From: Fistulifera solaris
Lineage: Eukaryota > Bacillariophyta > Bacillariophyceae > Naviculales > Stauroneidaceae
Reading direction: 5' to 3'
NCBI GenBank assembly: GCA_030295235.1
Contig: AP026140.1
Span: 620,001-684,000 of the forward strand
DNA length: 64,000 nt
Both the position numbers and the translations under genes were made by a program. Below are positions 3,040 through 64,000 of this stretch, in pieces. The notes under the pieces were generated by a model. That model saw only the letters and a program-made list of their open reading frames with translations, was not told where the DNA came from and made no database searches. The first letter of the stretch is position 1; every line of letters starts with the position of its first letter.

Positions 3040-3152
3040 TTTCCACACGTGTTTTGAGAAAATAGAAAGTAAAGTACTTAAGACACTTTCTGGGCATGAT
3101 TTTTAGCGCGTGGTAAGTTTGCACATGGTATCTGACTTGGTTCTTCGTCAAA

Positions 3153-7038: not shown

Positions 7039-9105
7039 ATGTCGTCGGAGTGGTTCAATCCGTACACGGCCGTCGGTGGCAGTGTCGCCATGTTTTACAT
7101 TTTACGCAAACTGCTGAAAGAAAGTTTCAACATGATTGATACGATTTGCAACCGCACGTACATTTACAACATTTGTTGGGAAGATCCGGCGGTCGATCAC
7201 CAAATCCTCAAAATTAAAAGCGACGACGTCATTTTCCGCATTTGCAGTGCGGGTGACATTGTGCTGGATTACGCCATTGAAGGACCTTCCAAGATTGTCG
7301 TCTGTGACATGAATCAGCATCAATTGTGGCTCTTTGAGCTCAAAATCCGCATGTTGCGCGATCCCAATCTCACCTACGACGAGTGGTGGGGTATTTGGGG
7401 ATCGTCGGATGTCAACGTGGCCATGAAAGTCTGGAAACGGATGCGTCATACTATGTCGGGCGGAGGTCGCAAGTGGTGGGACGGACGAATTGAACGGGTC
7501 TTTCGCAAGGGCTTTGCGACGTCGGGCTCGACCGGTTTCGCGGCCAAGTTCTTGATCCCCTGGCTCATGTACGTGGTCGGATTTGATATCAAAGCTTGGG
7601 CGGAAACTGGTTTCAGCCACGAGTTTATCTCCAAGAATTATCAAATGATTGAGCGATCGGCTTGGTGGTTCCGTCGTTTGTTTCCTGGAATTCTGGCGCC
7701 GTTTGCGGGAGTTCCTCCCAACCAAATCGGACCCGAATTCTATACCACCGAGTTTTATGAAGGTATTTTGCGTGAAATCTTTTTGGATCCGGATTTTGGT
7801 ACGACCAATTACTTTTACCGTTTCTACTACGAGAAGGGTTACAAAGATCAAACCTGCTGCCCTCGCACTTTGCAGAAGGAGCATTTTGAAGCCTTGCGAG
7901 CGAATGCCTCTTGCTTTGAGTGGCACCATGCGACAGTCCAGGAAACGATGGAACGTGTTGCCCCTCGAACGTTCACCAAGTTGGTTCTCCTCGATCACAT
8001 GGATTGGATGCCCAACTCTATCGTGCACGACGAGTGGATTGCATTGCAGCGTGCCTCTGTACCAGGTGCTCAGGTGCTGTGGCGCTCGGCTTTCACTAAA
8101 ATGGATGACAAGCCATTTTTTAATAACCTCGACATTAAAGATCTGAGCCCTCAGTGGTACAGCAAGGATCGTGTCAAGATGTACCCTGGCACATTTGAAT
8201 GTTACATGCCGATCAATCCCTTCCCATTCGTCGATCCGGAGCCATCGCCCTGCCAGAAGGCTTCGTTCGCTCGCAAGGTCAAAACAACGACCAAGATGAT
8301 TTTGCACCCTCTTACAGCCGGAAGAGTGGATGCCCACGGAGACAAAATGTCTTCATTCTATGCAGAGCAAGCAAAGGGATACGATGCGGTTCGAGAGAAT
8401 ATGCTGGTGGCACGACCCGAGATGATTTCTGGTTTTGGACCTATCAAGCAGGGACACACATGGCTCGACATTGGAGGTGGTACAGGACGAAATTTGCATT
8501 ACTTGCGTGCCCAGCTCGATAACTTTGAACGTATCGTGGTTCTTGATATCTGTCCGGAGCTTTTGGAAATCGGGGAAGAATCGGCCCGTCGCTCGTTCAC
8601 CCCGGCTCAGTGCGAAAAGATCAGCTGGTTATGTTTGGATATCAATGCTAAAAATGTTCGACAAGAACTAGCCAAACATCTAAACAATGACTTGCATCGT
8701 GGCTTTGATACCATCTCGTTCAGTTATTCACTCAGCATGATCCCGGAATGGCAGACTGCCCTACTGTCTGCTCGTAATCTCATGTCGGAAGACGGACGTG
8801 TGATTATTTCAGACTTTGATACTTACACGCATGAAGGAAAATCGTGGAAGGACTGGGCCATTCGCACCTGGTACAAACAAGACGGCGTCCGCATCGAAGC
8901 AAAGACCCGAGAGTACATCACGGAGACAGCGTTCCCCAGTGATCGTTTTGTGGTAACCATGGCACGCTTCCAGCGCAAGCTTGCCGGGGTCTGGATTCCT
9001 CACTATGTCATGTGTTGCCGTAAAGAGACAATTACAACGTCGAATGGTCTGCGACGTCCTTCGGCGTCGAATTTGATGGCACTTGACGAGAAGAAAAGCG
9101 ATTAA
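7039..9105 (+). CDS. BTA1: Betaine-lipid synthase, BtaA-BtaB fusion
   Basis: 688 residues, intact. The N-terminal part (about 30-400) is the BtaA/DUF3419 module, which transfers the 3-amino-3-carboxypropyl group of S-adenosylmethionine to diacylglycerol; its hallmark NICWEDPAVDH is at about residue 44, followed by a SAM-binding-like segment (ICSAGDIVLDYAIEGP) and VVCDMNQHQ. The C-terminal part (about 430-670) is a class I methyltransferase (BtaB-like) with motif I LDIGGGTGRN at about 476 and the acidic loop VVLDICPE; it would trimethylate the amino group. A hydrophobic stretch near residues 10-22 suggests ER membrane association. The product is a phosphorus-free betaine lipid. Diatoms are known for DGTA as well as DGTS, and sequence alone does not tell which head group is made. 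A seven-residue upstream extension through a 111-bp intron is possible. It lies about 3.8 kb from the end of MGDG synthase. Confidence 0.93.
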   Translation: MSSEWFNPYTAVGGSVAMFYILRKLLKESFNMIDTICNRTYIYNICWEDPAVDHQILKIKSDDVIFRICSAGDIVLDYAIEGPSKIVVCDMNQHQLWLFELKIRMLRDPNLTYDEWWGIWGSSDVNVAMKVWKRMRHTMSGGGRKWWDGRIERVFRKGFATSGSTGFAAKFLIPWLMYVVGFDIKAWAETGFSHEFISKNYQMIERSAWWFRRLFPGILAPFAGVPPNQIGPEFYTTEFYEGILREIFLDPDFGTTNYFYRFYYEKGYKDQTCCPRTLQKEHFEALRANASCFEWHHATVQETMERVAPRTFTKLVLLDHMDWMPNSIVHDEWIALQRASVPGAQVLWRSAFTKMDDKPFFNNLDIKDLSPQWYSKDRVKMYPGTFECYMPINPFPFVDPEPSPCQKASFARKVKTTTKMILHPLTAGRVDAHGDKMSSFYAEQAKGYDAVRENMLVARPEMISGFGPIKQGHTWLDIGGGTGRNLHYLRAQLDNFERIVVLDICPELLEIGEESARRSFTPAQCEKISWLCLDINAKNVRQELAKHLNNDLHRGFDTISFSYSLSMIPEWQTALLSARNLMSEDGRVIISDFDTYTHEGKSWKDWAIRTWYKQDGVRIEAKTREYITETAFPSDRFVVTMARFQRKLAGVWIPHYVMCCRKETITTSNGLRRPSASNLMALDEKKSD

Positions 9106-28072: not shown

Positions 28073-28192
28073 TTCCGCAATAATAGACTTTACAAGCTTA
28101 GAGGATATTGTTCTTTCACACGTCCACCGCAATCATAGGAATGCGCATAATTGAAAGTGAGCGATAATCGGAAAACGAGGACGACGCGAGAA

Positions 28193-28280
28193 CGAAATAA
28201 GGCAGTGGTGTAAAATTATGACTACAAGTGTTACATCTACCACGGAGGCTTCCCCGTCTGTACTACACTCGGTTATTTCG
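28193..28280 (-). repeat. Terminal repeat of copia element (3' side in sense)
   Basis: 88 bp, identical to the copy at 34919-35006. It begins CGAAATAA and ends TTATTTCG, an 8-bp terminal inverted repeat, rather than the usual TG...CA of LTRs. Confidence 0.85.
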
Positions 28281-31200
28281 GTCCCCTCACGATGAGACGC
28301 GAGCTAGGGCTTCAACGTGTCCTTCATAACCGATAAACCCTTATTTCATGGAAAAACAACATAAAAACCATGACGATTCATTCATCGAATCCATCCTTCA
28401 TCATGTGGAAAATACATCAAAACCACACATCGACTTGTCCGTGGAAAATACGTCAAAACCACGTATCAAACTTGAAACTTCAATCACTGTACCTGGACGA
28501 AAAACTTATCCCCAGGAGGCTCATCCCATCGGAATAGTAAACATAACTACCCAACCAGTGCATCGGGACCTATCGCCTGCATCACTGATGTAAAATACGC
28601 TTCACCAGTGGATCTCGTACATTCCCAGCTTGAATCTTCGTCAGAATATCTGCCAAATTCGTCTTCGTGAGGCTCGTAGGATACATCAACAATACCCATC
28701 GCAACTCGCTCACGCATTACATAGTAATATGCCACCGAATTGGACTTCTTCTTCAGAACTGATTCAGGAATACTCGAGTTCTTGATCACCGACATATTGT
28801 CACCTTTGACAACCGCAGGATCTTCTACCGGCACACCCATCATCTGTAGTTTGTACCGTAGACCTTCGATTAACTCGACCGCCGTTTTCATAGCACTAAA
28901 CTCAGCACCAAATGTCGACGTCTCAATCGAAGTTTGCTTCTTGCTGTACCATACTGTCAATGACCTGTTCAAATAGATCAAGACACCTGTACGGGAACGA
29001 CGAGTAACATGGTCACCCGCCAAGTCAGCATCAACGAAACACGTTATTTGCACAGGCTTACCCAATGGCTTTGGACAATCCGTCGGAATCATAGGCTTAG
29101 CATCTCGGTAAAAGTCATTCCAATCAGGTCTAGGTTGTCTGGCGTGCTCGACATACGAAGGATCGAACACAATCTTAGACCTTTCATGTGACTTCAAATA
29201 TGCAAAGACATGCACAACCGCAGCTAGATGGCCTTTCCTTGGCATCGCACTGTGAGACGCAAGCATCAAAACTTCACCACAAATATCAACTCTTCCAAGC
29301 TCGACCATCCAGCGTAAAACCCCTATTTGCGAGTGATATAACTGGATTTCGTCATCGCACTCCGGGCGATATGTCAAGCTCCGGACGGTACTTCGGTGGT
29401 AAAACACTTGACGCCTTCTTCGGTAAAGCCTCATCTCGCTTTTCCAACCAAAGACAAACGTTTCGTATTGCTTCCTTCACATATTCATTCGAACTCATCG
29501 ACCAACAAGGCTTTTCATCACCCGGGAATTGATGCTGACCAATCATCGAACCCAAGTAGCGAGTTGGCTTGCCTATCGAACCTTCTTTCAGAAGAAAGTG
29601 TTGATCAAGCTTGTATAGAATAGCTTCCGGCCACAGAAACACACAGGATGTCATCCGTATAGACCAATACCAACTCGTAGTAACTAGTCCCATCCGCTTT
29701 CTGTGCCGGCCGTATCCATACATCGTTATCCGCTCGACAAGGTGTAAAACTCAACGACTCATGCAAACACTCACTCAGATATGACCTCCACGCAGCTCCA
29801 GAACTCTTCAGTCCGTAAAGAGCTTTCACGATTTTCGCCTTTCGACCTTTGAACTGTGGACCAAATTCGGCACCGCAAATAATAAAGATTCGTTCTCGAA
29901 CTGGTGCATTCAAGTACGCATTTCCAATATCTGCCGCCATAATGTCCAAATCGTTCAATGCCGCTAGTAGGAAGGCAATCCGCACGCTTTCTCTCGATAC
30001 AACACTAGCATAGGTAATCGAGCTCGGGCGGATCCGTCATGTGTCCCCCCTGCTACGAGGGCGGGCCTTCCGTGTGAAATCTGGTTTTATATCAAAAACC
30101 ATGTGAACCCCAATCTTGGTAAAACCAGCAGGATTGGGAGCGTCTTCATCAAGGATCTGAAACGCCTTAGCTACCGCGACGCATCTCTTCTTAACGCCCC
30201 AAAAGTCAGTTCCCGTAGCGCGATCAATCGCCAATGCTTCTTCGACTGTCTTTGGCAATGCGATCCCATATTTCTGAGTAACACGAAAGTAGCGCTTAGC
30301 CATCGCTTTGATGATCCTGGTCCTTCTCTTGAGCGTGTAGGGAACCCACCATGAGAAAGCAGGCTCCTCAGCAATCTGTCTCGCAACAGCAAATTCCGCT
30401 AACTGTAAAGGGTGAGACTGCTTTAGGTCTTTCAGTTTCTCCCAAGTAGTAGTGCCATCATTCCATAGACAACACAGTTTCCATCCCTTGGTAGTCCGCT
30501 TAGGATACTTTCGGTTGTTGTGGATCACGAATGCCTCTTCATGCGGAACCGCTGCGACTCTTTCTTGTAGTCCACTATTTCCTTTAGGACATAACTCGCA
30601 CGCCCATGGTCATCGACTTCGGCATAGATGGCTTCAGCGATCTGATTCGCATGATAAGCCTCCACTTCACCCGTATCAAATTCAATCTCATACAGAGCGG
30701 TATCGAGCAAAGGGTTAGGATGGTACCGGCCAATAGGATTCCCGTCTTGATCGTGCTTTCGACCTTTAACCGTACCGTACGACATCAAGTCCCCTTGGCG
30801 GAAGCATTACCCTTGCTGAGATATATTGATTGTATGAATCGTAATCAAACTCATCAGCTTCCTTTATCTCGGGAACTTCCGGATCTTGCGACTCGGTCGG
30901 AACATAGTATTCCAACTCTGGGGTGCTTCGTCTTCCGGTATCTCGGTCGGATCCAAGGGCATGGCTCGGTCCTTCAGCTTTTGCTCCAACGTCTGCGTGA
31001 ACTTTGCCTTCAACTCAGCAACGGCTTGGCTATTCTGTTCCTCAACTGACAAAGGGAAAACACTTGTACGGGAAATCGGTCGACCAGAAGCGGGTAGGAT
31101 CCTAGCACATAGGACATCACCGACATCGGAAACTGGGACCAAGGTATCTTCCAAGATGCTTCCTTTCCATATTTTCGTCTTGAGGCGAGATAAACCAAAC

Positions 31201-34200
31201 CCAATCATACCAACCGAACTCACAAATGTGTGAAATATCGGCGGTGTCCCCTGTCAAAAGCGTCATGCGGCACTTCACCATCTAACTGTCTTATCGAAAG
31301 ACAAGAGTGGCTCCGAACATACGCGTGGTAGACCAAACATAGGTCCCATAGACAACGTGGGGAATTCGTGCGAATCATAGCACGCCCTATACATCCTTTT
31401 CAATTCACGAATGCCGTCTTCAGCGAGGGTTGGCGTTGGGCGTGTGTGCTTCGATCGGCCTAATGGTCGCTTGCACTCGCTATGCCTTTCGCTTAAACTC
31501 TCCTGCTGTCAACTCTCCGGCATTGTCTGGAATTAAAGTGTGAGGGACTCCGACGCTGACGAAACAAGTTGCCAAGCGTGTAATGGGCATCGCTTTTCAA
31601 TCGGGTCCACACACATCCAGTGAAAGGGGGTGCAATACACAGCCGCATATTTGTTACCCAGCAGTGAGACACATGTACCGACCAGAATGTCGCAGTACAT
31701 CTCCGTATTAAGCCGAGGATAACGCAGCTGGTACGCAAATGGTTTGAGACGGCAGCGTTCCAGAGACTGTCGAGAAGTCCCGAATTGCCCGTTGGCGTCG
31801 TTTCGCTGGAGCGTCAAGCCTAGCCGTCTCGATCCCTATACTCCATCGTTTTGCCAAATCTTCGGGTGTGACATATGCTTTCCGGTTCTTCGTTGAGATT
31901 GCAGCACTTGTAAGCCAGCATACGAATCGATGTCAAAAGCTGCCGAACGCGCTCAGCTGAAATCACAGCAATCGAACGAGCTGGCGGGACAAACGTGCGC
32001 TCACTCGTAACCGAACCAAGCATCCTCTGTCCCCCTAAACGAAGCTCAGAGTCAAGGGAAACACGCAATGAGTCCTCATCATGCTGCGTGGTTAGAATCC
32101 ATAGGATCCCAGAACGACTCGGAGGTGACGTTTACATGGATGCAGTCAACGTCCGAGCTCAGTTCGTTGTCGGTCGGTCGAAGTAGTGGGGAAATATGAA
32201 ATAGTCCCCATCAGTTTCAAAGGAATCTGGAGAGCTGGCTCAGAAAACAAAATAGAATGGCTCTCCGGGCGACGTTGTTCCGGGAGGTAGGTGTAGGAGA
32301 GGAGTTTCATTCACAACGACTTGGTTGTGCCGGTTGAGCGGGGCTGATCAAGTGTCCATGCATGTTTGAAAAGTAGAGTGACTGGTGAAAGAACAAAACG
32401 TAGGTTTGCAGCGTCGTGGGGCAATCGTATGCAACCGCAACTGTACCAATGGGAACTTTGGTCACTTTCCCAAGAGAACTAATGAATGGTTCCACCGAAA
32501 CTGTTTCGGCCGGGTATCATACACGAGAACCGCGTCTTTACCGAACGAGCAAGTATCGCGAGTGCGAGTCCAATTCAGCTCTACCAGGAGTCTGTTGTCG
32601 CATTGCCGCCGCGAACTCGCTGCACCGCCAGTCAAGGTCGCCGACTCATGCGGTTACCTGTCGACTCAACCACATCGTCACTATCGGAGTCAGCCGTCTC
32701 AACAGCTGAAGCATTTCGCCTCGGACTTAGCCCTTTCACGAGCATTGCGAACTTCTTCCTGTTTCTCTTCGGCAACTTGATCCACTCCTTCCATTTGTAG
32801 TACGGGACACCATCCTTGCCTTTCTTTGCTTTTCCGCCCTTTCCTTTACCAGATTTGCCGCCACCTTTCTTGTTGTTACCGCCGCCAGAATTTCTGGTAA
32901 CCGAAGAAATGTTGCTAGTGGAACCACGGGTCTTTGCTGCATCTTGCTTCTTTCTATCAACCTGCTCAGCCAAGTAGTTCATCGCGTTTTCGAAGGTACT
33001 TTCCAACACAGCATCAGCCCGGACGCGCTCGACGCTCATCTTTAGTTCATCTGCCCAGATGTTGTCTAGAAAGATTCGTACCTTCCTATCTTCAGTCATC
33101 ACCTCACCCGCCTCTTCCAAGTCCAAGAAAGCCAAGTTAAGCTTCTGACAGTAGTCTTCAAAGGTGAAGTTACGCGCCTTTCCATCATAGAAGACTGTCG
33201 AAAGGACTCGGTCGGCCTGAGCAATGTTGCGCTTCTGATAAGAACGCCCCATATAGTGAGTCTTCAAGGCAAAATAAGCGGCGTCCATCCTTGCTGTAAG
33301 CAAAAGGCTTAACCCAATTCCAAGCTGGTCCACCGTGTGAAACCTGACGAATAACGCCTCCACAGCATCATATTGTCTTCTTCATACTGGTCTCCATCAT
33401 GGCGAGTACGACGAACAAGTTCCGACATAGCATCAGGGACACCGAAACCTGGATCATCAACCCCTTCGATTCCATCGGGATCGACATGCTCCCGCACAAG
33501 GTACGACAAAGGCGCACCATAAGCTCCAAGGTGATTGCCAAGTACCTCGTCGATGTCTTCAATCGTCTTCCGAGCGTTTTCCACCTTCAACAACACATCA
33601 ATCTTAGGAAGATCTTTGTTGGTCTCGCATGCGACGAATGCGCCACGCAAAGTCCAAGCGTTCCAATCGAGCAAGAGTTGCAAAGCCAGGAACAAACTCG
33701 CTGCAAGCGGTGCAAGTGGAAAAGGAAGTAGCGAAGCTGACGAACACGGAGCTCAAGATTGACTCCGATCGCAATACCACGGTTCGGAATCATCGCAGGT
33801 TGCATCGGTGCAGCCTCCGCTCCAGCCGCAGGAGGGACAAAGGCTGGGTTTGGAATCAAACCCCCAGGGTTTCGAATCTTCGTAAAGATCTCCTGAACGT
33901 ACTTATCACTCCGGTGCGTCAAGTCGTCAAACGCGGTAATGCCTTGGCCATTGATGGCCTGATGAGCTGCCGCATCCTCAATAAAGAGGACATCACGGAG
34001 GTAGTTGTTGAATGCAGCAAGATTGGCTGCCATCGTAAACAAGGAGAAAGGAGAGAAAGTTCACAAATCGGAATGCGAGGGAGATAAAAACGAAACGACG
34101 TTTCTTTTTCTTTTTTTGTGTGCGAAACTGCATCGTCGCTAAAACGTTTGCACGAAATTCCGACCCCTTTACTCTCCCTTCGAGAGTGTTGTTTACTGTA

Positions 34201-34918
34201 GGGAACTCCAGTGTAAAGCGCCAAAAGTGCCCTTATGTACGTAAGGCCATTGTACACACTAGCCCATACAGAATAATCGTCCACACCCTCATTTAGCTCT
34301 GAATCCGTTCATAGTCAAAAAAACAGATCGGCCTAAACAGTATAGAACACGACCTCGGACAGGCCAAAATACACGCACAACACGATTTCACTTGCGCAAC
34401 TTCTCGCGAAATCCGACGATGTTGTGCTTTGACCGCCTCTGGAGGAAAAACATCCCTCCACCATGAGGACTTCGCAACAATCGGGTGAATAATTCACTCA
34501 TTTATGTATTCTAGCATTAAAGGTGTATTAGCATGTATACGAGGGCGCCCCCATATTTTACCCGACAAGTGACATAATCACTGTGGTCCGATGCATCCAT
34601 GGACAGAGCCAGAACTGTCAATAAAGGAAAGCAACGGTGCTTCATAAGCGCTAATTACCTCACAAACCCAGCCATCTAATCAAGACATATGATTAACATG
34701 ATGACTCCATGGGGTCGACCTATACATAAGGTCATGATCTCACATTTTCATGTGGACAATTGTCGACTTCCGACAACGCCGAGATCATCTCCTTGACCAC
34801 TCAAGCCCAACAGTTAGTAACACATACATAAGGAACATTACTCTTACGATATTACCATTGTTTTCCTGTGTATTTCATCGTTTCAGAGGGATTCATCGCG
34901 AAACCCCGGTTTTTAACC

Positions 34919-35006
34919 CGAAATAAGGCAGTGGTGTAAAATTATGACTACAAGTGTTACATCTACCACGGAGGCTTCCCCGTCTGTACTACACTCGGTT
35001 ATTTCG
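34919..35006 (-). repeat. Terminal repeat of copia element (5' side in sense)
   Basis: 88 bp, identical to the copy at 28193-28280. The right-hand flank starts AGAA, matching the four bases left of the other copy; a five-base GAGAA match is possible if the last G is counted as host sequence. Confidence 0.85.
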
Positions 35007-35309
35007 AGAAGGCGAAAATCAACGAAGACGATCGTCGCGAGTGCATTTTTTTACGCGCACACGTCCGACGACGGAAGGATAGACTATCATTCATCCGTGA
35101 GTTAAAGAGTACAGGTACTTGTATCGGTACCGGGACTGTGAAGGACGACAATGACAACTCAACTAGACTATAACTCTCGTAACGCGGGACAAAAATAACC
35201 TATACCGGTTTTTGAGCGCAAGAGAAGTCTCTTTGATAGAGATGAACTCTAGCATTGAATCTATCTTCTACTGTACTTTGAAAAATAGTTTTTATGATGT
35301 TACTCCTTA

Positions 35310-37617: not shown

Positions 37618-38057
37618 TTGCTAAGATGGGCTTTTTTGTGGGAGAGAAGAGTTAGAACTGCCATACTTGTTGCTTTCTTCGTTTGAATTGATGATAAATA
37701 CTCCGAGGCCTTTAGTGTCAGTCCCATTAATTGAGAACATTTTCATTGCGAACGGGCCACGCGGTCAATCCCACGAGAATTTTATTTCGTTCCACGCGCA
37801 CAATTTTCGAGGCGTTTGAGGATGATTCATAAGAGCGTGATACGTAGACTGTGGCGAATAATGTACATCTCCTGTACTTGAGACACGACAATCGGTACTC
37901 ACATTCCACAGTATTCAAATATTTGCCACGTAAGCACGCGATTTGTACCAACACGGTAGGGTTAACGGTTAGCTTTCTTATACATCATTGCTTGACAAGC
38001 TGGACCTCTCTAGCTAGCTAGACATAGTGCCTTTTATTATCCTTTCAGTCCACTAGA
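37618..38057. other. Intergenic
   Basis: 440 bp between the start of one minus-strand gene and the end of PIG-T. No feature recognised. Confidence 0.5.
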
Positions 38058-39536
38058 TTAACCACTCGACACGGGCTCTTCTTCGGTGGCAGAAGCCAAG
38101 TCCGACTCGGGTCTACGAAGCAGCTTGTTTCGAAAAGCCTTAAGTTTGTCTTTGATAACACTCATTTTACCGGGTGGCTTTTTCGACGGATCCAATTCTT
38201 CTTGAACACCCTGACTAGCCTTTCGAATCAGCAAACTCATAGTGGAACCAATCACGAATGCGTACAGAGTACATGTGAGGGAGAGGACGTTAAAAGGCAT
38301 ACTGAGATCCGGTAGCGGTGGTAGAAGTAGAATAGTATTCGAAGATACAGTGCCTTCGCTAAAGTCTACCCAGACCGGTGGCAGCTCAATTCCTCGATTC
38401 GGATCCCCGGGTATTGAATCAAGTGACCAAAAGAGGGGATCGAATTGTAGTGAAACAGAAAAACTCTCATTCCAGCCGTAGGTCAAATGGACGCCATCTT
38501 CAGCAAATACAATGTCATGGGTAAGTAACTCGTCCCATCGCAACGTACTACCGGACTCAGTTTGCACCTTTAACGATGTCCAGCGTGGTTTAAGTACTGG
38601 AGGTAAATGCTGATGAACCACCGTGGGAATATTGGTGTCGATCCGAGTAACGAGTGTACCCGTGTGAGCCATTGATGGGTAAAGATGATAATCAACAAGC
38701 ACGGAAGGCTTATCACGTATTGTAGGAGAAACTGCCTTCCGAAAAAGCGGATGTTCGATAGATATGGAAGAGCTCAAAAAGCACGTGGTCTCGTTCTTTG
38801 CTTCACAAATATCTGAATTCCATTCAATATTCGAAGCGGATGCCGAGAGCAGCTCCATCTGGATCGGATCTGCCAAAAGTGGTTGGTTCACTGGAACGGG
38901 AATGAGATCCTTGAACTTCGGCAGTCTATTACTCTGAACAATATACTGTAAGCCTCTTTCAATCGTATCTCCTTCTATTTCTATCCATAGGCGGTGCCGT
39001 GTTGTTGTTTCCAGTAACCAGCTCGAATCGGTCATCCAATAATCACGCAATGCCTCCACGGAAACAGCGGCATTTCCTTCCGTAGGTAGAACAATCGACC
39101 ATACTCCATCTTTCTCGTGCGCGTAACGATGTAAGCGCTTGGTTTGCGTATTGGTCGATGTCAGCAACAAACGATGTTGAAGCACCAGCTGTTGAAACAA
39201 ATGTTCCGGGGCAGTACTATTGGCAATGGCTACCGTTACTCCAGGATGAGAACGAACCGTCCAGTCTGGAGCACTGAGAGAATGAAACGGATCAAAGGGA
39301 TAATAAGTCTGTGCCTCAGACGATGCCTGCAGGAATACACGATGTGCGGTTTGTTGTTGCAGCAGCCGACGAAGGTCCTGAGGGAGACGCTCTCGTGTGA
39401 CGATACGAACGTGCCAGTCGACACCGCCGCCATCGACGGTTACTGGAGCCAACCATATCCTATGTTCTTTTGTTTGAAACATCTCGGACGATGCTTGCAG
39501 AAATAATAAGCTTTGAGTAATGACAGCAACGTACAA
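38058..39536 (-). CDS. PIGT: GPI transamidase subunit PIG-T (Gpi16)
   Basis: Subunit of the ER complex that cleaves the C-terminal signal of proteins and attaches the GPI anchor. The family's C-terminal hallmark is clear: VSSNTILLLPPLPDLSMPFNVLSLTCTLYAFVIGSTMSLLIRK, containing the single membrane helix, and RGIELPPVWVDF shortly before it (human PIG-T has DFSMPYNVICLTCTV). The large luminal domain precedes it, with N-glycosylation sites. The N terminus has a signal-like stretch (VAVITQSLLFLQASS), yet the frame has no ATG before about 39482. The true start may be in a missed exon or lost to a base error, so 39536 is only the frame limit. About 490 residues, shorter than animal PIG-T. Confidence 0.85.
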   Translation of the reverse strand: MYVAVITQSLLFLQASSEMFQTKEHRIWLAPVTVDGGGVDWHVRIVTRERLPQDLRRLLQQQTAHRVFLQASSEAQTYYPFDPFHSLSAPDWTVRSHPGVTVAIANSTAPEHLFQQLVLQHRLLLTSTNTQTKRLHRYAHEKDGVWSIVLPTEGNAAVSVEALRDYWMTDSSWLLETTTRHRLWIEIEGDTIERGLQYIVQSNRLPKFKDLIPVPVNQPLLADPIQMELLSASASNIEWNSDICEAKNETTCFLSSSISIEHPLFRKAVSPTIRDKPSVLVDYHLYPSMAHTGTLVTRIDTNIPTVVHQHLPPVLKPRWTSLKVQTESGSTLRWDELLTHDIVFAEDGVHLTYGWNESFSVSLQFDPLFWSLDSIPGDPNRGIELPPVWVDFSEGTVSSNTILLLPPLPDLSMPFNVLSLTCTLYAFVIGSTMSLLIRKASQGVQEELDPSKKPPGKMSVIKDKLKAFRNKLLRRPESDLASATEEEPVSSG

Positions 39537-39874
39537 GTATTACGGTAGTCTAACCAAAAGGTTTAGCGCGATGCGGATTTTTCTTTTGTGTTACTAAAGT
39601 TAAGGTTACCGTGAACGGGAAGTTTACGATCTTTAGTTAGCAAACAAGATCCGTTTATTGTCACACTGATATTGGTTCCGCCTCCCCTAAACTTCAACTT
39701 CTTGAACGCGCACACACATTGCGACGACCATGACGCGATGAAAATACTGGGTTGAAATAATCCGAGTTCCTATTGATACGCAATCGCCGTTCTTGGACTA
39801 CATTAAACGTTTTCAATCGGGTTTTCTTGCTTGCTCTATTTACGTCGAATCACGACGACTCCTGAAATCGTAAC
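39537..39874. promoter_or_regulatory. Divergent upstream region PIG-T / DUF1995
   Basis: 338 bp between two head-to-head starts. No conserved coding sequence. Possible missing first exon of PIG-T lies here, but I could not place one. Confidence 0.35.
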
Positions 39875-40957
39875 ATGGCAATCAGCTTCTTCTTTTTGCA
39901 CTCTCATTCTACCTGAGTCTCATCCCCCAGGCAGAATCATTTGTTATCCATCAATGCGCGAAATCTTTTTCTCGACTATCCGCTGGTAGACCGACCGAGC
40001 TTCCCGATTCATTAGAAGATGCTGCCGTCCGAGCTGCGGAGGCCTCGGCATTGTTTGCCGAGCAAATGGGTAGCATGGGCCGATGCCGGGTCGACTTTGA
40101 CACATCAGTCGGCGACGAGACCTATACAATGCTCAAATCAAGCACCGAATTCATGCAGAATTATGTCTCGGCCTTGTGTTACTCTATGATTCCGGGACTG
40201 CAAGAACAGCGTCAAGCCGAAATGATGCGTGTGGTAGAGGCGCGCGCCGAACTCAAGGCGATGGAGAATGCGGAGGAAGCCAACGCCGAGCGAGAAGAAC
40301 AGTTGGTGCAAATAATAGCAGCAAATGGACGAGATAAAAATGCGAAGTGGGAAGGACCCAAAGCACGAATCTACTTTCCGGATGAAGGAAATGCTGCCTT
40401 GGCTCGTCGTGATTGGCTCGGTAGTGGACCCAAGCCGGGCGCCGCCAAAGTACCGCCCTGCGTGGAATTTAGTTCCTGTGGTGGCGTGCAAAGAGTCAAT
40501 GATGTGTCGAATGATATGCTGGTCTTCTTCTTTTGCCCAAAGGCTTCGGAATCGGATTCGGTAGAAAAAATATTACAACGCTCGGAGGCTGAATCGAGCT
40601 GTCTCAAGCTCACTGTGTTTGTCAACCCCAGTCTCGTCGACATGGGTGTCACCGGGTTTGGAATGGCCGGGCGCATGTTGCGCGAGCGACTCATTGATCC
40701 CCCTCCAAACAACGTACTATCTGCGTACGCTGGCTTGGGGCGCGTTGACGCGACAGTACCCGGAAGCGTTTTCGGTGTGGCAGGAAGATGAGGGCGCGGA
40801 TGGAGGCTACCGGCTGATTAAAACGATGGATCGCCTTCCGTCAAATCCGGAAGTGGAAGATATTTACGACATTGAGAACGGTGCGAAAAGCGAAAGGTCG
40901 AGTGGTGGTTTCTTAGATCAACTAGGTGATTTTGTTCAAGGTATGACTCGACTGTAA
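39875..40957 (+). CDS. Plastid-targeted DUF1995 protein
   Basis: Recovered across two run-length breaks. The ATG at 39875 reads MAISFFF and, if the T-run at 39893-39897 lacks one base, continues [18 protein letters not shown]: a signal peptide with an AESF motif, the diatom plastid signature. The body has the DUF1995 layout: [19 protein letters not shown], an [18 protein letters not shown] segment, [21 protein letters not shown], then (after an extra C in the run 40699-40703) [20 protein letters not shown] and [17 protein letters not shown]1995 proteins occur in plastids of plants and algae; some are linked to photosystem biogenesis, but the chemistry is unknown. Stop at 40957. Confidence 0.78.
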
Positions 40958-41261
40958 AGAACAATTTGCAATAAATATATTTTAGCACGGTAAATTTCGC
41001 ATCGATAATGCTTGTAGTCCTAACGATATAATTCGTTTTAGTTCTGACAAAGAGCGGCCAGTTATAGTTTCATCGAAAAAGCTAGACTAGAGTTGGTGAA
41101 AGATTGCAAGAGGCTAATTTGGATGAAGTAGGGCCTGAAGCTCTAGTCAAAGGCCCCTTCAGGCCGTTAGCGTACAGTCAAAAGCCTAAACAAATCGATT
41201 TTCCTCATTTTTCAAAGGAAAAAAGATCCACCGAGCATATCATAAAAAGAGAGTTGGCAGC
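40958..41261. other. Short intergenic spacer
   Basis: 304 bp between two plus-strand genes; nothing recognised. Confidence 0.5.
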
Positions 41262-42831
41262 ATGTTCGCTCTTGTGCATATCTTGTCTATTCTTTCCTTC
41301 GGTCTGGTATGTGCCAGCCAGGGAAATGATGACCCGGTGGTGGTGGGCCTTACTTTCCTTGCGGAGTCTACTGACCCATCCGAAGGAAGCACTCCCTGGG
41401 CACTGACAAGCCATGGTATTGCTGAAAAGCTCTTCACCGTAGACAAGAACGGCAACATAGTTGGCCAGTTGGCAACATCTGTTGCCAAGGTCAGCGACTT
41501 TGTCTGGGATGTCACCATTCAACCCGATAGCAAGTTTTCTGATGGTACGCCAGTCTCAAGCGAGGCCGTAGCCTTTTCATTGATGGAACAAAATAACAAG
41601 AATCCTAGCGCACAGTCATCATTGGGAAACATGACAGTGGTAGCTTTGGATGATACGACTGTGAGGATCGAGTCGGAACGCCAAACTCACATGATGGATG
41701 CTGTACTTGCGGAGTGGGCATTTGTTATCTATTCCAAAGCCTCGGACGGAAACTTTGTATTCACTGGGCCGTTTGCCATTGCAGTTTTCGAAGCGGAACA
41801 AATTCACTTAGTACCCAACGAGTACTATTTGGGTGCAACAGTGCGCTCCAGTGTTTTGATTAAGAAGTTTGAAGATGGGCATGATTTGGCGACGGCTTTC
41901 AAAGATGACAAGGTTGACATCGCATTTCAGCTACCCATTGACACGCTTCCGGATTTGAGAAAGGAGAAGGGTGCCCGTATCAAGTCGTTTGAAGTGGGTT
42001 ACCACTACATGATGTTTTACAACATGGAGACATTGGAAGATGTTCGCATACGGAAGGCCATTGATCTAGCTATTGATCGCAATACAGTGTCCCAGGCTCT
42101 TGCTGGAGGCAAAGGCACTCGCAGCCTCTTCCCCGATAATTCGCCGTTCTTCTCGGATGACTCGGAAGCGGGTGGCGACCCCGATGCGGCATCCAAATTG
42201 CTCGAAGAAGCGGGATGGGCACTGAATACGAGTGGCAAGCGCGCCAAGGACGGCAAGGAGCTAACCGTCCAACTTGTAGCATATCCTCATCGTCCAGGAC
42301 TCCTGATTTCACAAAAGGTGATTGCAGAAACTTTGACCGCTTTAGGTATATCGGTCACCACCATCGTCACCGGTCAGGATTGGTCCGAGACGGAGCAGGT
42401 TATCAACGACAGAAGTTTCGATTTGCTCATGTGGGCCCAACACACGTTGCCCGCCGGCGACCCCTTGTGGTTCCTCACTACCTTCTTTCGCAGCGACGGG
42501 AGTAACAACCACGCGCACATCAACTCGACTACTATAGACCTCTACGTGGACATGCTCTCTCGTAGCGAAGGACACGACGAACGTGTGATGTTGAGCCAAA
42601 CAATTCAAGATTTTATCCTCGAGGCAGTACCGGTAAGCAACCTCGTGACGCCTTTTTTGGCATGTGGGGCTGAGTGAACGCGCAGCTGATTACGAGCCTT
42701 GGGGTTCTGATTACTACGTGATCCGGTCCGATTTGTCAGTCGCACCTGGAGAAGTTTCTGGTGGCCAGAGAAGTGCCGCGGCTCAAGGGTTGTTGATAAT
42801 CTGTGCCACTTTCATGGTTGTAATGCTGTAA
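41262..42831 (+). CDS. Secreted bacterial-type solute-binding protein (SBP_bac_5), GPI-type tail
   Basis: Signal peptide FALVHILSILSFGLVCA, then the oligopeptide/nickel-binding fold of ABC importers: TPWALTSHGIAEKLFTVDKNGNIVGQLATS, WDVTIQPDSKFSDGTPVSSEAVAFS, DVRIRKAIDLAIDRNTVSQAL, AASKLLEEAGW, and FDLLMWAQHTLPAGDP near the end. In bacteria such proteins deliver peptides, nickel or opines to a membrane permease; no permease is seen here. The frame closes at 42677, but removing one T from the run at 42653-42658 continues PFWHVGLSERAADYEPWGSD, then a Gly/Ser spacer and a hydrophobic end (GLLIICATFMVVML) stopping at 42831. That end looks like a GPI signal. Likely acquired from bacteria and now a cell-surface binding protein. 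Confidence 0.83.
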
Positions 42832-43426
42832 ACTGTCAATATGCAGGTGTCTTTTGCGTTCTAGCCTATAGACCGTAGCCTCATCTTTCCCTTGTATTAG
42901 AAAAAATTGTGTCCGTCATCCACATCTGTTCCTCCGACGAAGCTTAGCCTCGAATCAAAATCGTGTAGGACTGATTCGGATCTCATTTCCTTGCTAAAAA
43001 AGAAATTAAGAGTTTCTGTTTCCGCTTTTTAAATCATTCTCGTGCAGAATCACCGTTCACGCTGACGCGCACACTCAATCGAATGCCTCCGGAACACAAG
43101 GTCGCCGTATGTCGTCGGCAGCAAAATCAGTTCCTGTAGTTGGCTATTGCCAGCCATTCCTGTAACTGAAAGAAACAGAAGCGAAAGGATAATACGGTTG
43201 CGTTTTCATAAATAATGCGTGATGCTGTGAATAAAATAAAACTTTTCGAAGCAATATGCGACCGATGTGCAGACGCTCCAAAAATCGCGTCCCATTTTTT
43301 TTGGAAAAGTGTGCGCGTGTCATCATCGTCAAAACACACCATAGTTGATGCCATTATTAATACTCCGTAATTAAGAAAAGTGTTCCAATAAAGATAGTTA
43401 AAGCGATCTACACTGATTGGGGTAGC
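42832..43426. other. Intergenic
   Basis: About 600 bp, no conserved gene on either strand. Promoter of the following TPR-methyltransferase gene. Confidence 0.5.
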
Positions 43427-44922
43427 ATGATACTGAAAATCGTTTCATTACTGATATTTAGTCTCCTACAATTTGCGGTCGATGGATCCCAACTGGATGA
43501 TATCCTCATCCAAGGAAACGATGCCTTGGTGGAAGATAATACTCAACAAGCTATTTTCCTGTATCGCAAAGGAATCGAGGAAATGAAACGGCAAAAGGAA
43601 GTTTCTTTGCTGACAACCATCAGTTTGTATACGAATCTTGCAACTGCACTGTCTTCCGAGGGCGACAATGAGGCGGCAGCGCTGTCGTACCAGCAAGCTT
43701 TGACCGCTTACGAAGACCAAATTGATTTCGTCTCGGACATGGAAACAAAGGAAGAAGCCAAAGAAATCGCTTCTCAATCATCTTTTTTCTTAGGTATGGT
43801 CTACCAGGATCTAAGTCGGCCAAAAGAAGCCATCGAAGCTTACGCTCTCACTCATGATGAGTTCGATTCCAACCATTGGGCATCCTACGCCAACAAGGGG
43901 TCGGTATTCCATGACAACTTCTCTAACCATGAAAAAGCTCTCGAAGCTTACAATCAAGCGTACACACTTCTGGTGGGAGGGCACGCCACGGAGCCACCGG
44001 CCGAACCTCGTTATATTCTCTCACAACTCCAATATCGCATCGGATTGTGTTTGTCGGCGCGAGAGGATCGTCGCTGTGCTTTGCAGAATGAGGATGGCAC
44101 TACCGAAGTCGTGGACTGTCAAGAACAAGCCGCTCACGCCTTTAGCGTAGCATTGCAATACGATCCTACCAATGTGTCGGCGCAACATATGCTCGCGAGT
44201 CTCACGGCCGACGCGACCATGAAGCGAGCATCCAATGCGTACGTGCAATCACTGTTTGATGGTTACGCCGTCAATTTTGAGCACTCTCTGGTCAAAGATT
44301 TGGGATATACTGGATACGAGCGCTTGAGAAAAGGATTTGACCGAGCCATGGTAAACCTCGGAGAAACAAAGCCCATGTCACTAGTTATCGACGCGGGATG
44401 CGGCACTGGGTTAGTGGGAGAGCAGTTTCGGAACATCAGCACGGTATTGGTGGGAGTGGACTTGAGTGCAGCAATTTTGGAGCAGGCTCAACAGAAGCGA
44501 CCTGGTCTTTACGACGATACTCGAGTTGGGGATGTCATGGCCACCTTCGACGAATTTGCTAATCAGATCTCGCTGATTATTGCTGGAGACTCTTACATCT
44601 ATTTCGGTGACTTACTTCCACTGTTTGAAGCCATGGAAAGGGGTTGAAACCTGGAGGATATGCTGCTTTTACGTTAGAAAATGTTCCAGCAGAAAACGAA
44701 GAAATACTGGCTGAAACAAAACCGGACTGGAGATGGCAGCTGACCCCCAGTGGGCGCTTTGCCCACCGAAAGGCCTACGTTATGAACGCGAGCCAAGAAA
44801 CGAATTTAAAAATAATACACTACGAGCAGATGGATGGCTTCCGTTTCGAGAAAGGAATCGGCGTCCGTGGGCATATATTCGTCCTCCAGAAACCTCATAA
44901 AGGGACGGGCGATGAGTTATAA
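43427..44922 (+). CDS. Secretory TPR-methyltransferase
   Basis: Signal peptide (ILKIVSLLIFSLLQFAVDG). Residues about 25-250 are TPR helices (YTNLATALSSEGDNEAAALSYQQAL, FFLGMVYQDLSRPKEAIEAY, HEKALEAYNQAYTLL). A class I SAM methyltransferase follows, with LVIDAGCGTGLVGEQF (motif I) and VLVGVDLSAAILEQA. The pair recalls the bacterial predicted TPR-repeat methyltransferases. The frame closes at 44647 in the run of four G at 44640-44643; one missing G restores LFEAMERG-LKPGGYAAFTLENV, the family's post-motif III, and the protein ends at 44922 (RGHIFVLQKP). The substrate is unknown. Location in the secretory pathway is unusual for this family. Confidence 0.83.
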
Positions 44923-45126
44923 ACGCATCATACAAATAGTCAAGGCTTAAGCTAGGAATTTTTTGATGTTTGAATTAAGGAACGAATCAAATAATCAATT
45001 GTGGTAACATTACAGGGAAATTACCAAGCAGGCGCACTCCGCCGTTTAGACTGGAACGGTAAACAAGATATTTCGCATGATGAATCATCCTGCAGCGGGA
45101 ATACTTTTCTTAGGTACGACTTGCCC

Positions 45127-46636
45127 TCAATCCTCGTTCCGATCAGTTTCCGAAACCTCACTGACATAGTTGTTTTCGGTTTCAGAGTAGTTGATTGATT
45201 CACCTGTTTGAACCGAATCAATATGGGTGCCAGCCAATTCAGAGGTGACGCTTTCCGTCACGTCTGTCATAGAGTCTCCCTTTTTCCATTCAACTTTTCA
45301 GTGGTCTTTTCTGCCTCGTCGTGTCCATTCAGCGGTTCATTATCGTCTGTATCGGCTCTGGTCTTCTTCTTTTTCTTTTTATCCTTATTTTCTTGTTCGT
45401 CTTCCACCTCGAGTGGTCGATTCCACGGCGCATCTGCCCCAAACTCTACTGACTCGGAATCGTCGTCTTCGCCGGCCATCACTTCCTCTTCTTCGTGCCC
45501 GTCATCAGTCAAGTGCGAACTGACAGAAACATCATCCTTTGCTTCAATGTAGATCTCTGGTGCTCCAGCAGGCAAGCTGTCGTCGGCGTCTTCGGCAACT
45601 GCGGCTTGGATTGCTGCAGCCAGTAGTTTTCCTTCTTCCTTTGTAAGGCGTACACTGTCCTGAATAGGCAATCCGCGAAGAGCATTAAGCATGGCAGAAG
45701 GACCCGGAACGGCCTCAAGCTCTTGGAACGGAGTTAGATCGACGTCTCCGAAATCAACACCTTCGAATTCGTCTGACTCTCTGAGTCTACGGATCAGGGC
45801 ATCCTGCTTAGACAGAGTGTCTTGGTAGAGGATTCTCATGCTACTAGCCGTTGCGTCCAGTGTCATGAAATGCATTTCGCAAAATGCCTTTTTATCCGAA
45901 AGCCATGATTTACAGCGTTGTAGATATTTCTTGATTTCTCGGCTACCCTTGTGAAGTTTTGCTTTTTGTTTTTCTATCGCAAGCATCTGGTGCATATTCC
46001 TACATAGTTGTGCTTCCAAAGCTACTTCCTCTTTCGACCCAACCTTCTTCCACTTTTTACTGGCTTTCATCATAGCCTTAGCGTATTCTTGAACATTGAA
46101 TCCGGTATGAGTCAGTAGTTTCGTATTCTTTACTATCTTCTCTTGAGTTGCGAGTAGCATCTTTTCCTCCCGTGCTCTTTTGAAGCAGTGACGAGTCTCA
46201 ACACGATTTCCTTGCAAGCGATGGGCTTTCAGAGCCTTCCGGCATATTTTCATTTTCTTTCGGATTTCGATGATCTCTTTATCTCTTTTGATCGCTTCAG
46301 CGTAGTATTGCTTTTCAGCTTCCCATTTTTTATCGGCGGCAAACTTGGCGGCGTCTTCAGCCTTTGAAGAAAACCAGTGGTAAGCAGCTTCCTTTTGGCC
46401 TCCCATTCCTTTGCCGCTTGCTCTTCTTTCTTCTTTTGGACTTTCCGCTCAGCCTCTTCGACAATCTTTGCCTGTTCATTCTTCTCACCAAGGAGCTTAC
46501 GCAGTTCAGCGGGGGAGAGGTTCGGATGTTTTGCAGCGGCCATAGCCATCTCTAAAGCCAAGCGGACTTCCTCATCGTCTTCGTTTACTTCCTGCACATT
46601 GACGCTAGAAACGTCTTCCGCCTCCGCTTCAGCCAT
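45127..46636 (-). CDS. Long charged coiled-coil protein, unknown function
   Basis: ATG at 46636 (MAEAEAEDVSSVNVQEVNEDDEE). The N-terminal third is a charged coiled coil (EEAERKVQKKKEEQAAKEWEAK). A missing base in the run at 46393-46396 shifts the frame there; it resumes as EAAYHWFSSKAEDAAKFAADKKWEAEKQYY. The middle is a helical bundle of basic helices with conserved-looking Trp, Cys and His (RNMHQMLAIEKQKAKLH, CKSWLSDKKAFCEMHFMTLD). The tail is acidic with a KKKKKK patch, possibly a nuclear signal. The frame as given stops at 45267. A missing base at the run 45278-45280 would extend it through a Ser/Thr/Glu-rich tail to 45127, which I include with less confidence. I do not recognise the family. 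Confidence 0.65.
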
Positions 46637-61144: not shown

Positions 61145-61596
61145 ACGAAAGCCGCAAAAAGTCTATATAACAGGCGTAGCTTAGCTAAATTTTGACACTT
61201 CGCACTTAATTTTAATAAAAAAATTGGTTCAAACAAAATCTTTTGATCTTGTCATGTAAAAGAGGCGAAATATCCACAAGTCGGATAAAGGAGAGATAGC
61301 GCTGCAATAACTCCCAGCATACGATTTGCCCGAGAGGGGGATGACGAAAGTGTTCGGCTTCAGCCTTTCTAACCACAGATAATCCTATTATTAACCCTAA
61401 TTTCGAAAAAAAAATGAATCCTGTAGATGGTAAAAACTGACTTCAAAGAGCAGATCATAATAACAGCATCAAAGTCCTCTCGAATGTCTAATTCAACCCC
61501 TATTCGTTCTCGATGTGTTATCCCCAATGACGACATCAACACCATTTAGCGAGCGAACAAAAATAAGTCGAGACACGTTGAAAAATATCTTATCAA

Positions 61597-61964
61597 TCGA
61601 AACAACGTGATCTATCTCATAGTTAAGTGTAGAAAGGAAATTTATTGGGAAGTTGTCAACACGTCAACGATGTCCCCTTCGCTTCCATCAGGCACCAGCT
61701 CAAAGCATGAAAAACTCCGTCTGTATTGTGTTTTGTGTCCTTGCGTCGTCACGGATGCTTTCCCAATCATTGGTTTCGTCAAGTCGACCAATACTTTCGC
61801 TATTCGAACATCTAAGTTTATGAACACGTAGGTTACGAAACTCTGTATTTTCTTGGTAAGAAAAACAGTAAGCGCGTTGCCTACCCGATCAACCATTAAG
61901 TGAGCGATCAAACATCAGTAAAGAACCTTAAAAAAATATCAATTTAGTCGAAACAACGTGATCT
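61597..61964 (+). repeat. Diverged tandem duplication, offset about 351 bp
   Basis: The 17-mer TCGAAACAACGTGATCT occurs at 61597 and 61948, preceded in each case by an AAAAATATC word and followed by loosely matching sequence (a GAAAG/GGAAA stretch, then ACACGTTCAACGA or ACACGTCAACGA). The copies have drifted a good deal. Confidence 0.6.
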
Positions 61965-62544
61965 CTATTTTGAGTAAAATGGTGAAAGGTTGCGAACACG
62001 TTCAACGAAGCACAAAGCATATCAAATTCCGTATCTTCTTTCTTTCAGTCCCCACCTGAAATCAAAATATATCATCGCATTTAACAACCTACAAATTAGG
62101 TGAAAGCGAAGACCTTGGACGTTACATCTCTTTCGTTAAAAATTCGGGGAAACTTGGCCGTCCAATTCATTGCGACGTGAGAAACGAGAGAAAATTTTAT
62201 TTTGCTAATACAACTGCTCAATGGGATGGAAGTGCTTTCACAATGTTGTTACCAAGGATAACTACCTTCTGATGCATAGAGTGATAAGGAACTATGAGAA
62301 TGCTATATCGTGGATACTTTTCTACCCGAAAAGATTATCTGTTTGCATTTTGAATTCACTTGTCTCCATAGCAAGCAAAGTCTTAACATCACTAGTCTTT
62401 ATGAGACATTATCAACATTCTTGCTTTAGAGATTATGATAATTGATCTCACTGGACCAGCTTCTAGGATGAAACGATAATGCTGCATAGTCTAGCTTAAA
62501 TAACGAAATGATAGAAGAATTTACTTTACAACCTTTATAAGAAT

Positions 62545-62880
62545 AATGACCTAGATCACCGAAAACATAGGTTTTTGTGCAGAAAGGATATAAGCGGTGT
62601 TTTCAGCAATTAATATCTCGGTGATACAAGCACGTTGGCATGGCGAAGATTATCTATTTAAAATATTGGGCTCTGAATCACCCACAAAATATGTTTTTGT
62701 GCTCGAAGGAAATATGCGCTGTTTGCAGTTAATGATATCTCGGTTATTCAACCACGTTCGCATGTTTTATAAAATTATCGCACTGGATCAGAACTAAATA
62801 TGGTTATGTTCTCAGAGAATGTAAGTAATGTTTTGAGCAATTGATATCTCGGTATGGTAAAAATGTTGGCCTATCTTTTT
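62545..62880 (+). repeat. Degenerate tandem repeat, about 110-120-bp unit, three copies
   Basis: The word ATCTCGG recurs at 62615, 62737 and 62846. Each is preceded by a GTTTTCAGCAATTAATATC- or GTTTGCAGTTAATGATATC-like segment, and further upstream by a TTTTTGTGC or TTATGTTCTC stretch. The copies differ at many positions, so the array is old. Confidence 0.6.
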
Positions 62881-64000
62881 ACATTATCTCAACCATATTA
62901 AATTCACCAATATGATTATATCCCGCTCATTTATATGAGGCTAGTCATTTTGATTTAATTGAGCCAGGAAAGATGTCCAGTATTGTTGCCAGTGCGCCAT
63001 ACCCAAGTTGCTTGCATAAGGACGGTTCAATGATTAGTGAATAGTCACAATGAAAGCATATGCTACTAGCATACATATGATCATAACAGCCCACACTCGA
63101 TGCTTTAACACACCGCGCTATAATGATACAGAATGAAATCGACGTCAACATGAATAACTAAAAACGGCAAAGATCTTCGCAGCCCCAGCCAGCGTTGCAG
63201 TCACAGCAGATATGAAAAAGCATGTAATTTTTCTGCAACGCCATCTTTCACCTACGCGACGAAGCCTGACGCAAACTTTCTGAAGTAGAAGCATTATCGA
63301 CTTAAAACACCGCCAGTACGACCTCACGGCGGCCACATTAATACCTAAAGACAAATCTCGCCAACATCAACCAATCCAAGCGTTCCTCGCGACGGCCATG
63401 CCAGATTGTACTGGTAGAGCATGGGTTCTCACCGTTAAGATTGCAAAGGAAGCCCACGAACAGGACCGGTTCGATAAGGATGAACAGGACCTTTAGACCT
63501 AATACCACGCTTTTCCAATGAATCTCGGACGCATCTACGGTGCAATATACACCTATCAACCTTGAGTTGGTACAACGTAGTTAACACTTTCGGGTCTCTC
63601 ACATCAAGCTTTAGAGTCGGTATAGTTAATAACTATATAAATCCTTGTAATATAGTAGTAATTATGATTAAATTGAACACAACGTCGAGTTTCTCTGGGA
63701 CTGGGGGCACTGCTGCGAAAAGAAACGCCAAAGAATATATTGGAGCAAAGCAGAATCATTCGTTAGCTGCTATTATTGGTAACAGGTTTATGGATCTTAG
63801 TTTTACATGAAAGGGGAAAGATACTTTGCTCGAATTCCAGGCTTTACAAACATTCGAATAGCAGCATGTTCTTTTTATTCAACTGATGGTTGTTTGTTGG
63901 AACTCAATTGGCTTTCCAAGTTCTGCCAAGAGACTAGCAATGCAGCAAAGAAGCTTTTAACCGTACGCTCGATACCGCTATCGTTCGGCCAATTCGCGCC

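Follow-up and report, generated by a model that had tools for sequence, protein, structure and literature searches.

Results and discussion

A bacterial binding protein in a diatom

How does a diatom come to encode the solute-binding protein (SBP) of a bacterial ABC importer, and what could such a protein do there? The question is raised by a gene of Fistulifera solaris that lies within the 64,000-nucleotide stretch of DNA analysed here (the window), which corresponds to positions 620001-684000 of contig C19, a contig of 1.04 Mb in an assembly of 51.7 Mb and 61 contigs. An open reading frame beginning with ATG and running for 471 codons (frame 0; Table 1) encodes a protein whose single Pfam domain is SBP_bac_5 (PF00496; E-value 1.6e-53, 182.6 bits against a cut-off of 32.4). 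The match spans positions 2-367 of the 368 in the profile, which bears out the full fold claimed in an earlier, sequence-only reading of this DNA, and the order of the domain is canonical and colinear with NikA homologues. The eukaryotic signal peptide claimed in the same reading agrees with our own inspection, in which the N-terminus looks secretory; the likely cleavage site lacks a Phe, and we therefore presume that this putative signal peptide is not of the plastid type. Where that reading went wrong was in treating 41262-42831 as one coding span: its 1570 nt are 3n+1 and do not form a single reading frame.

The best NCBIfam model for the protein is Opp5A_nikA (NF045468), at 211.4 bits, under the cut-off of 600, and the model for E. 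coli-type NikA (TIGR02294) gives 68.9 bits, under its cut-off of 393. Because a bacterial relative from Roseibium (L025) is likewise under the NF045468 cut-off, with 261 bits, both proteins look like members of a neighbouring subfamily. The closest solved structures are those of the nickel-binding proteins 3t66 and SaNikA (4ofj); phmmer returns an E-value of 3.1e-10 with the E. coli NikA chain 1zlq, and blastp finds 23-26% identity with three of four NikA homologues.

Table 1. Positions of the features discussed (window coordinates unless a contig is named)
Feature	Position	Strand	Basis or remark
SBP_bac_5 gene, frame-0 ORF, 471 aa	41262..42677	+	ORF, profile match, pN/pS against C20 homoeolog
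Putative secretory signal peptide, hydrophobic core HILSILSFGLVC, mean Kyte-Doolittle 2.06	41262..41315	+	read from sequence, hydropathy
PF00496 SBP_bac_5 domain, aa 66-415	41457..42506	+	profile match
T6 run, one base to be skipped for the conserved C-terminus	42653..42658	+	same in C20 homoeolog
Conserved C-terminal 26 SBP codons, +1 frame (WHVGLSERAADYEPWGSDYYVIRSDL)	42658..42735	+	match to bacterial C-termini
Diatom C-terminal extension, candidate GPI attachment signal, +1 frame	42736..42828	+	hydropathy/omega rule, bacterial comparison
NikA-type paralogue L002	1300-3219 of C1:590398-594336	-	circularly permuted
NikA-type paralogue L004	1300-3153 of C2:565698-569633	-	circularly permuted
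Further NikA-type paralogues	L003 (C41), L005/L006 (C40)		permuted order

Genomic setting and homoeologous copy

Fistulifera solaris is described as an allodiploid with 42 homoeologous chromosome pairs (PMC5935921). The region of the window recurs on contig C20 in ten blocks of about 82-91% DNA identity, and this synteny, together with paired paralogues on C1/C2 and C40/C41, fits such a genome. No block of the C20 stretch compared corresponds to window positions 28133-35049 or 61277-64000, which may reflect a subgenome-specific insertion, a deletion in C20 or a rearrangement. The neighbours of the SBP gene are eukaryotic in character: a gene with a Gpi16 domain (38058-39536), an upstream gene with a DUF1995 domain (assigned from its C20 copy) and a gene for a TPR-methyltransferase (43427-44647). 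Given these neighbours and the synteny with C20, we conclude that the gene is nuclear; bacterial contamination is ruled out by the same two observations and by the 1.04 Mb contig. Elsewhere in the window, a single ORF (7039-9105, forward strand) fuses a DUF3419 domain with a methyltransferase domain, an arrangement that looks like that of a betaine-lipid synthase.

The homoeologous copy of the SBP gene, at C20:605168-606668 (about 2668-4168 of the extracted record L013), is a pseudogene. Its reading frame is interrupted by stops at the counterparts of window positions 41397, 42396 and 42432, and it has deletions of 22 nt and 16 nt and an insertion of 8 nt. Upstream of a T6 run near the 3' end, comparison of the C19 and C20 copies along 439 codons gives 80 synonymous and 75 non-synonymous changes (pN/pS 0.28), which indicates that purifying selection acted on the gene for a long time, the changes of the dead copy being counted in.

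Evidence for horizontal transfer

Searching plasmids with tblastn, we found alphaproteobacteria at the top (Neorhizobium, 37%), with records of Fusobacterium and Aerococcus within the ten best. A pattern-based scan of prokaryotes (84,980 species, one genome per species) yielded 59 loci with identities of up to 47% (L069); going by title, 52 of the loci belong to alphaproteobacteria. Visualizing the bacterial sequences and the diatom protein in a tree of 63 rows, from which six truncated loci were left out, we observed that the diatom protein falls within a clade of 52 rows with support 98/94; apart from L032 (Granulosicoccus), L069 and the diatom itself, the members of this clade are alphaproteobacterial by title or record. 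Inside it, the diatom protein groups with L022, L023 and L069 in a set of four rows (99/97). Pairing with L022 alone has no firm support (94/69), and the diatom branch is long (1.94), its exact placement within the clade being less sure. The phylogeny against bacterial SBP_bac_5 proteins that had been suggested as a check thus nests the diatom protein among bacteria, and the horizontal transfer claimed from the fold is supported by these sequence comparisons. In viral contigs, a search whose reach was limited to close relatives returned none of the protein or of the NikA-type paralogue L002.

A change of frame at a T6 run

Frame 0 terminates at a TGA (42675-42677), whereas from 42658 the +1 frame encodes WHVGLSERAADYEPWGSDYYVIRSDL, which matches the C-termini of bacterial homologues (for example VTPEWHVGLSPALAAYEPWGSDYYVIRPDL in L034), and then SVAPGEVSGGQRSAAAQGLLIICATFMVVML, before a stop at 42829-42831 (last codon 42826-42828). 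The T6 run, the sole homopolymer of at least five bases in the gene, holds one surplus base, and an identical run in near-identical context is present in the homoeologous copy on C20. Over the 26 codons of WHVGLSERAADYEPWGSDYYVIRSDL, the two copies differ in the +1 frame by three synonymous changes and one non-synonymous change, and by five to one when the three codons up to SVA are added; from this pattern, small as the numbers are, the +1 frame was probably translated during much of the time since the subgenomes parted.

Three causes of the surplus base can be considered. The likeliest is an assembly error common to both copies, which needs the same error twice; a real frameshift and programmed slippage are less likely. 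In the neighbouring DUF1995 gene, a surplus C at window position 40699 (C5, against C4 at C20:604621) breaks the C19 copy, whereas the C20 copy is intact as one ORF of 358 aa, which suggests that the assembly contains single-base homopolymer errors. When 14 C19 ORFs of at least 300 aa were compared with C20 (20.7 kb, the SBP gene left out), 23 of the 37 gaps were not a multiple of three, and six of these 23 involved one base within a run of at least three. An intron joining both frames was rejected, the sequence flanking T6 being continuous with bacterial protein on both sides; a frame-compatible GT..AG intron of 64 nt (GTAAGC to ACGAG), picked out manually, would delete the conserved WHVGLSERAADYE, and its acceptor is poor.

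Were the frameshift real and old, the gene would encode a soluble secreted protein of 471 aa that lacks the conserved C-terminus and the anchor, or it would be an incipient pseudogene. The presence of T6 in both homoeologs would fit this, as would a C20 copy that is already dead, with its three stops, two deletions and one insertion; yet the substitutions after T6 obey the +1 frame (the small numbers given above), and the +1 segment is still close to the bacterial C-termini. We consider a real frameshift unlikely.

Bacterial relatives and the likely ligand

Of the 63 bacterial loci, some of which end early upstream, 42 have a cobalamin riboswitch 5' of the SBP gene and in the same orientation (10/14, 6/15, 15/17 and 11/17 by batch; 39 of 59 genome loci and three of four plasmid loci). 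The 21 loci without a riboswitch include L022 and L023, two of the three closest relatives of the diatom protein, and those tested from Firmicutes and Fusobacterium (L012, L055, L065, L066, L068 and L076). Nor was a cobalamin riboswitch found in window positions 38000-46000, as is expected after transfer to a nuclear genome. The most similar locus, L069, adjoins cobQ and cobD. For the permeases examined (two of L025 and one of L075) the best models are Opp2B/NikB and Opp2C/NikC, with scores below the cut-offs. Among the four E. coli-type NikA loci fetched, one, L087, adjoins nikR. B12 riboswitches mark Co(II) uptake systems and NikR sites mark Ni(II) systems (PMC7689651), and a survey notes a B12 riboswitch at two NikABCDE systems (PMC2667541). 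From the B12 riboswitches, the cob genes and the contrast with the nikR locus, we infer that, of the possible substrates, cobalt is the most probable one for the bacterial clade.

In three records, two rhizobial and one from Paracoccus (L008, L009, L011 about 5105-5926), the riboswitch-controlled operon opens, according to the annotation, with a protein labelled as 2Fe-2S ferredoxin domain or as oxidoreductase subunit E. L011 also has a weak N-terminal match resembling sirohydrochlorin chelatase.

The pocket of E. coli NikA includes Arg137, Trp398 and His416 (PMC11091072). These residues are not kept in the diatom protein, where the profile alignment pairs them with Trp152, His394 and a Gly, respectively; the pairing was read by eye, with the E. 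coli numbering placed through an alignment of NikA chains. Since the pocket is not conserved, binding of Ni-(His)2 cannot be assumed. Binding would use other residues, for which Gln393 and His394, nearly invariant in the family, are candidates. The literature searched held nothing joining SaNikA with nickel and histidine.

A receptor at the surface might bind a corrinoid (B12 or one of its precursors) and not a metal-ion chelate: 42 of the 63 bacterial loci are under B12 riboswitches, which govern cobalt and corrinoid uptake alike, and many diatoms require B12. Against this, the examined permeases are NikB/NikC-like, the SBP is nearest to nickel-binding proteins, and the Roseibium locus has, after its permeases, a separate SBP with a helical backbone and a weak match to BtuF (47 bits against a cut-off of 234). 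We know of no corrinoid-binding SBP_bac_5 proteins, and we regard a corrinoid ligand as improbable. Organic solutes, peptides and opines among them, are improbable ligands to a similar degree: OppA, DppA and opine binders do belong to the superfamily, but these give weaker matches, the nickel-type model is best by far (211 bits for NF045468 against 55.6 for Opp4A), and the bacterial context is one of cobalt and B12. The sequence-only reading had named peptides or metal as the possible cargo; the metal half of that claim is strengthened by the nickel/cobalt-type relatives and the riboswitches, whereas the peptide half loses ground. Judging from its relatives, a metal, cobalt in particular, is the likelier ligand of the diatom protein.

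The C-terminal tail

The spacer and hydrophobic end that had been read as a GPI anchor signal are present, and bacterial relatives lack them, but they lie in the +1 frame, outside the frame-0 ORF. The tail consists of a small-residue site, SGG (42757-42765), a spacer and a 14-residue hydrophobic end (42787-42828). Its hydrophobicity is equalled by one of 897 other C-termini from the six frames of the window. It also passes a simple omega-site rule, which is a heuristic rather than a trained GPI predictor and which nine of the same 897 controls, a set without the tail itself, pass as well. Since the 53 bacterial homologues with a readable C-terminal motif terminate 2-9 residues past that motif, the extension is a diatom addition. 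Between C19 and C20 it differs by four synonymous and ten non-synonymous changes (pN/pS 0.79), as expected if hydrophobicity alone matters. The tail is consistent with a GPI signal, short of proof, and we stress that it becomes part of the protein only if T6 reflects an assembly error or if translation bypasses it.

Of the GPI transamidase, one subunit was seen, in the gene with the Gpi16 domain (reverse strand; 57.2 bits against a cut-off of 27). This Gpi16/PIG-T gene is the next-but-one neighbour of the candidate GPI-anchored protein, probably by coincidence.

Bypass by a +1 translational slip on U6, which would let one gene yield both a truncated, soluble protein and a full-length, anchored one, is very improbable: U6 would, by reasoning, permit exact re-pairing after the slip, it is kept in both homoeologs, the +1 frame is constrained, and an 80-nt stem lies directly 3' of T6 in C19 (z -2.42), but the counterpart in C20 is lost (z -0.86), four of 75 sliding windows along the gene are as extreme, no stop is seen by eye immediately after the slip site, and single-base differences between C19 and C20 are common in other ORFs, including that at 40699 in the neighbour, so that an assembly error is simpler. 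With the stem lost in C20 and equalled elsewhere in the gene, a programmed frameshift stimulated by RNA structure is unsupported.

A proposed surface trap without a permease

The sequence-only reading had noted no ABC permease nearby, and this observation extends to the whole assembly: the ABC-importer permease domain PF00528 has no match in its 51.7 Mb, whereas 14 of 14 control genomes were positive. The missing domain lowers the probability that the protein is part of an ABC importer, not the probability that it binds a solute. Carriers of the ZIP type give 14 matches in the genome, exons being counted separately. With ZIP carriers present and no PF00528 found, the protein would act as a surface trap.

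We hypothesize that a diatom acquired, from an alphaproteobacterium, the SBP of a nickel/cobalt ABC importer, which would then have gained a secretory signal of eukaryotic type and, at its C-terminus, a signal for membrane attachment, the permease not being kept. The protein would be exported and held at the outer face of the plasma membrane, most likely by a GPI anchor. Its two lobes would close on a chelate of cobalt, nickel or zinc and so raise the amount of metal at the surface, and the captured metal would either be handed to ZIP-type carriers or be internalised together with the protein.

Taken as a whole, a secreted, probably membrane-anchored Co/Ni/Zn receptor of bacterial origin that works without a permease has, in our judgement, about an even chance of being the correct description. 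It builds on a fold family, a set of mainly alphaproteobacterial relatives (most of them under a B12 riboswitch), a search of the assembly in which no permease was found, a history of purifying selection and a eukaryotic setting that are all established; secretion, anchoring, the metal ligand and the route of delivery are what we infer from these. Two things weaken the description: the loss of frame ahead of the anchor, seen in both copies as assembled, and the death of the C20 copy.

Surface seawater offers little cobalt or zinc, and in some diatoms either metal can take the place of the other (PMC9010474). According to a 2009 survey, no cobalt-specific transport system had been reported in eukaryotes (PMC2667541); a surface receptor taken from a bacterial cobalt uptake operon would, if true, be a direct candidate for one. 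Because one potentially functional copy of the gene was found and ribonucleoprotein editing is described as established in Fistulifera solaris (PMC13276009), the proposal is testable by one knockout.

NikA-type paralogues

The genome also holds paralogues much closer to NikA. L002, on C1, matches 1zlq with an E-value of 8e-56, and the model TIGR02294 (cut-off 393) gives 300 bits for the C1 paralogue and 286 for that on C2. In L002 and L004 the protein is circularly permuted, the C-terminal part of NikA coming first and the N-terminal part second: compared with L087, residues 40-176 of L002 correspond to NikA 360-493, and residues 228-564 to NikA 43-333. Both homoeologs show the swapped order with each of the four NikA homologues compared, and it recurs in the alignment of L002 with the E. 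coli NikA chains; the paralogue on C41 is colinear with L002 across the junction, and the C40 copy has the same order with broken frames. Read from the sequence, these paralogues finish in a hydrophobic stretch resembling a transmembrane segment, followed by a short tail. By eye, the positions of NikA Trp100, Arg137, Trp398 and Tyr402 appear to be kept in L002, and that of His416 is occupied by Glu, with histidines two and four residues further. The phrase 'circularly permuted' occurred in none of the literature matches listed, and the main text of PMC9010474 holds no word starting with 'permut'.

If both proteins work as receptors, this eukaryote would have a dedicated, permease-free surface receptor for cobalt, made from the cobalt-specific binding protein of a B12-regulated bacterial importer, and a separately acquired, permuted receptor of the NikA type, two transfers from bacteria having served the capture of cobalt, nickel and zinc. 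We offer this wider picture tentatively, as one that is possible and on the doubtful side.

Comparison with known systems

The nearest counterparts in sequence are the Opp5A/NikA-like SBPs of alphaproteobacteria (for example L025 and L022; also the bacterial L069), which share 33-47% identity with the diatom protein in an alignment of 42 sequences, as well as the domain order and the C-terminal motif. They differ in ending 2-9 residues past that motif and in adjoining permeases where these were annotated or examined, whereas the diatom protein has the hydrophobic +1 extension and no permease was found in its genome. SaNikA (4ofj) and 3t66 belong to the same fold family and align over nearly the whole chain; the diatom protein is below the Opp5A_nikA cut-off, however, with 211 bits against 600. 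The phytotransferrin ISIP2a offers a functional parallel, being a metal-binding protein that is held at the surface and follows an endocytic route, but its metal is iron and not cobalt, nickel or zinc, and we hold it to be unrelated by way of its comparison with ZCRP-B, in which no significant similarity is reported (PMC9010474).

ZCRP-B is the closest precedent. In the account of PMC9010474, the one source on it in the literature searched, ZCRP-B of Phaeodactylum tricornutum and Thalassiosira pseudonana is a Zn/Co-responsive NikA homologue at the cell membrane (30.5% identity with E. coli NikA, E-value 7e-49), mostly predicted to lie outside the cell; homologues of NikB and NikC were not detected in the proteomes, and the role proposed for the protein was to enrich metal at the cell surface or to be taken up by endocytosis. 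The literature searched held nothing joining Phaeodactylum with SBP_bac_5. Like ZCRP-B, the protein described here is a candidate diatom surface protein derived from a bacterial SBP, with no partner permease found and with the same working model. Its similarity to NikA is far weaker (E-value 3.1e-10 with 1zlq), it belongs with the Opp5A-like SBPs, and its candidate anchor is C-terminal, whereas ZCRP-B has one predicted transmembrane segment near the N-terminus. By closeness to NikA, L002 and L004 appear to resemble ZCRP-B more than the SBP gene of the window does. The latter looks like a lineage distinct from ZCRP-B, the two being set apart by published figures of similarity to NikA and not by direct comparison. 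The concept is thus known through ZCRP-B, while the bacterial source and the candidate anchoring end differ, and the idea of surface capture as something apart from transport would be extended to a second bacterial lineage.
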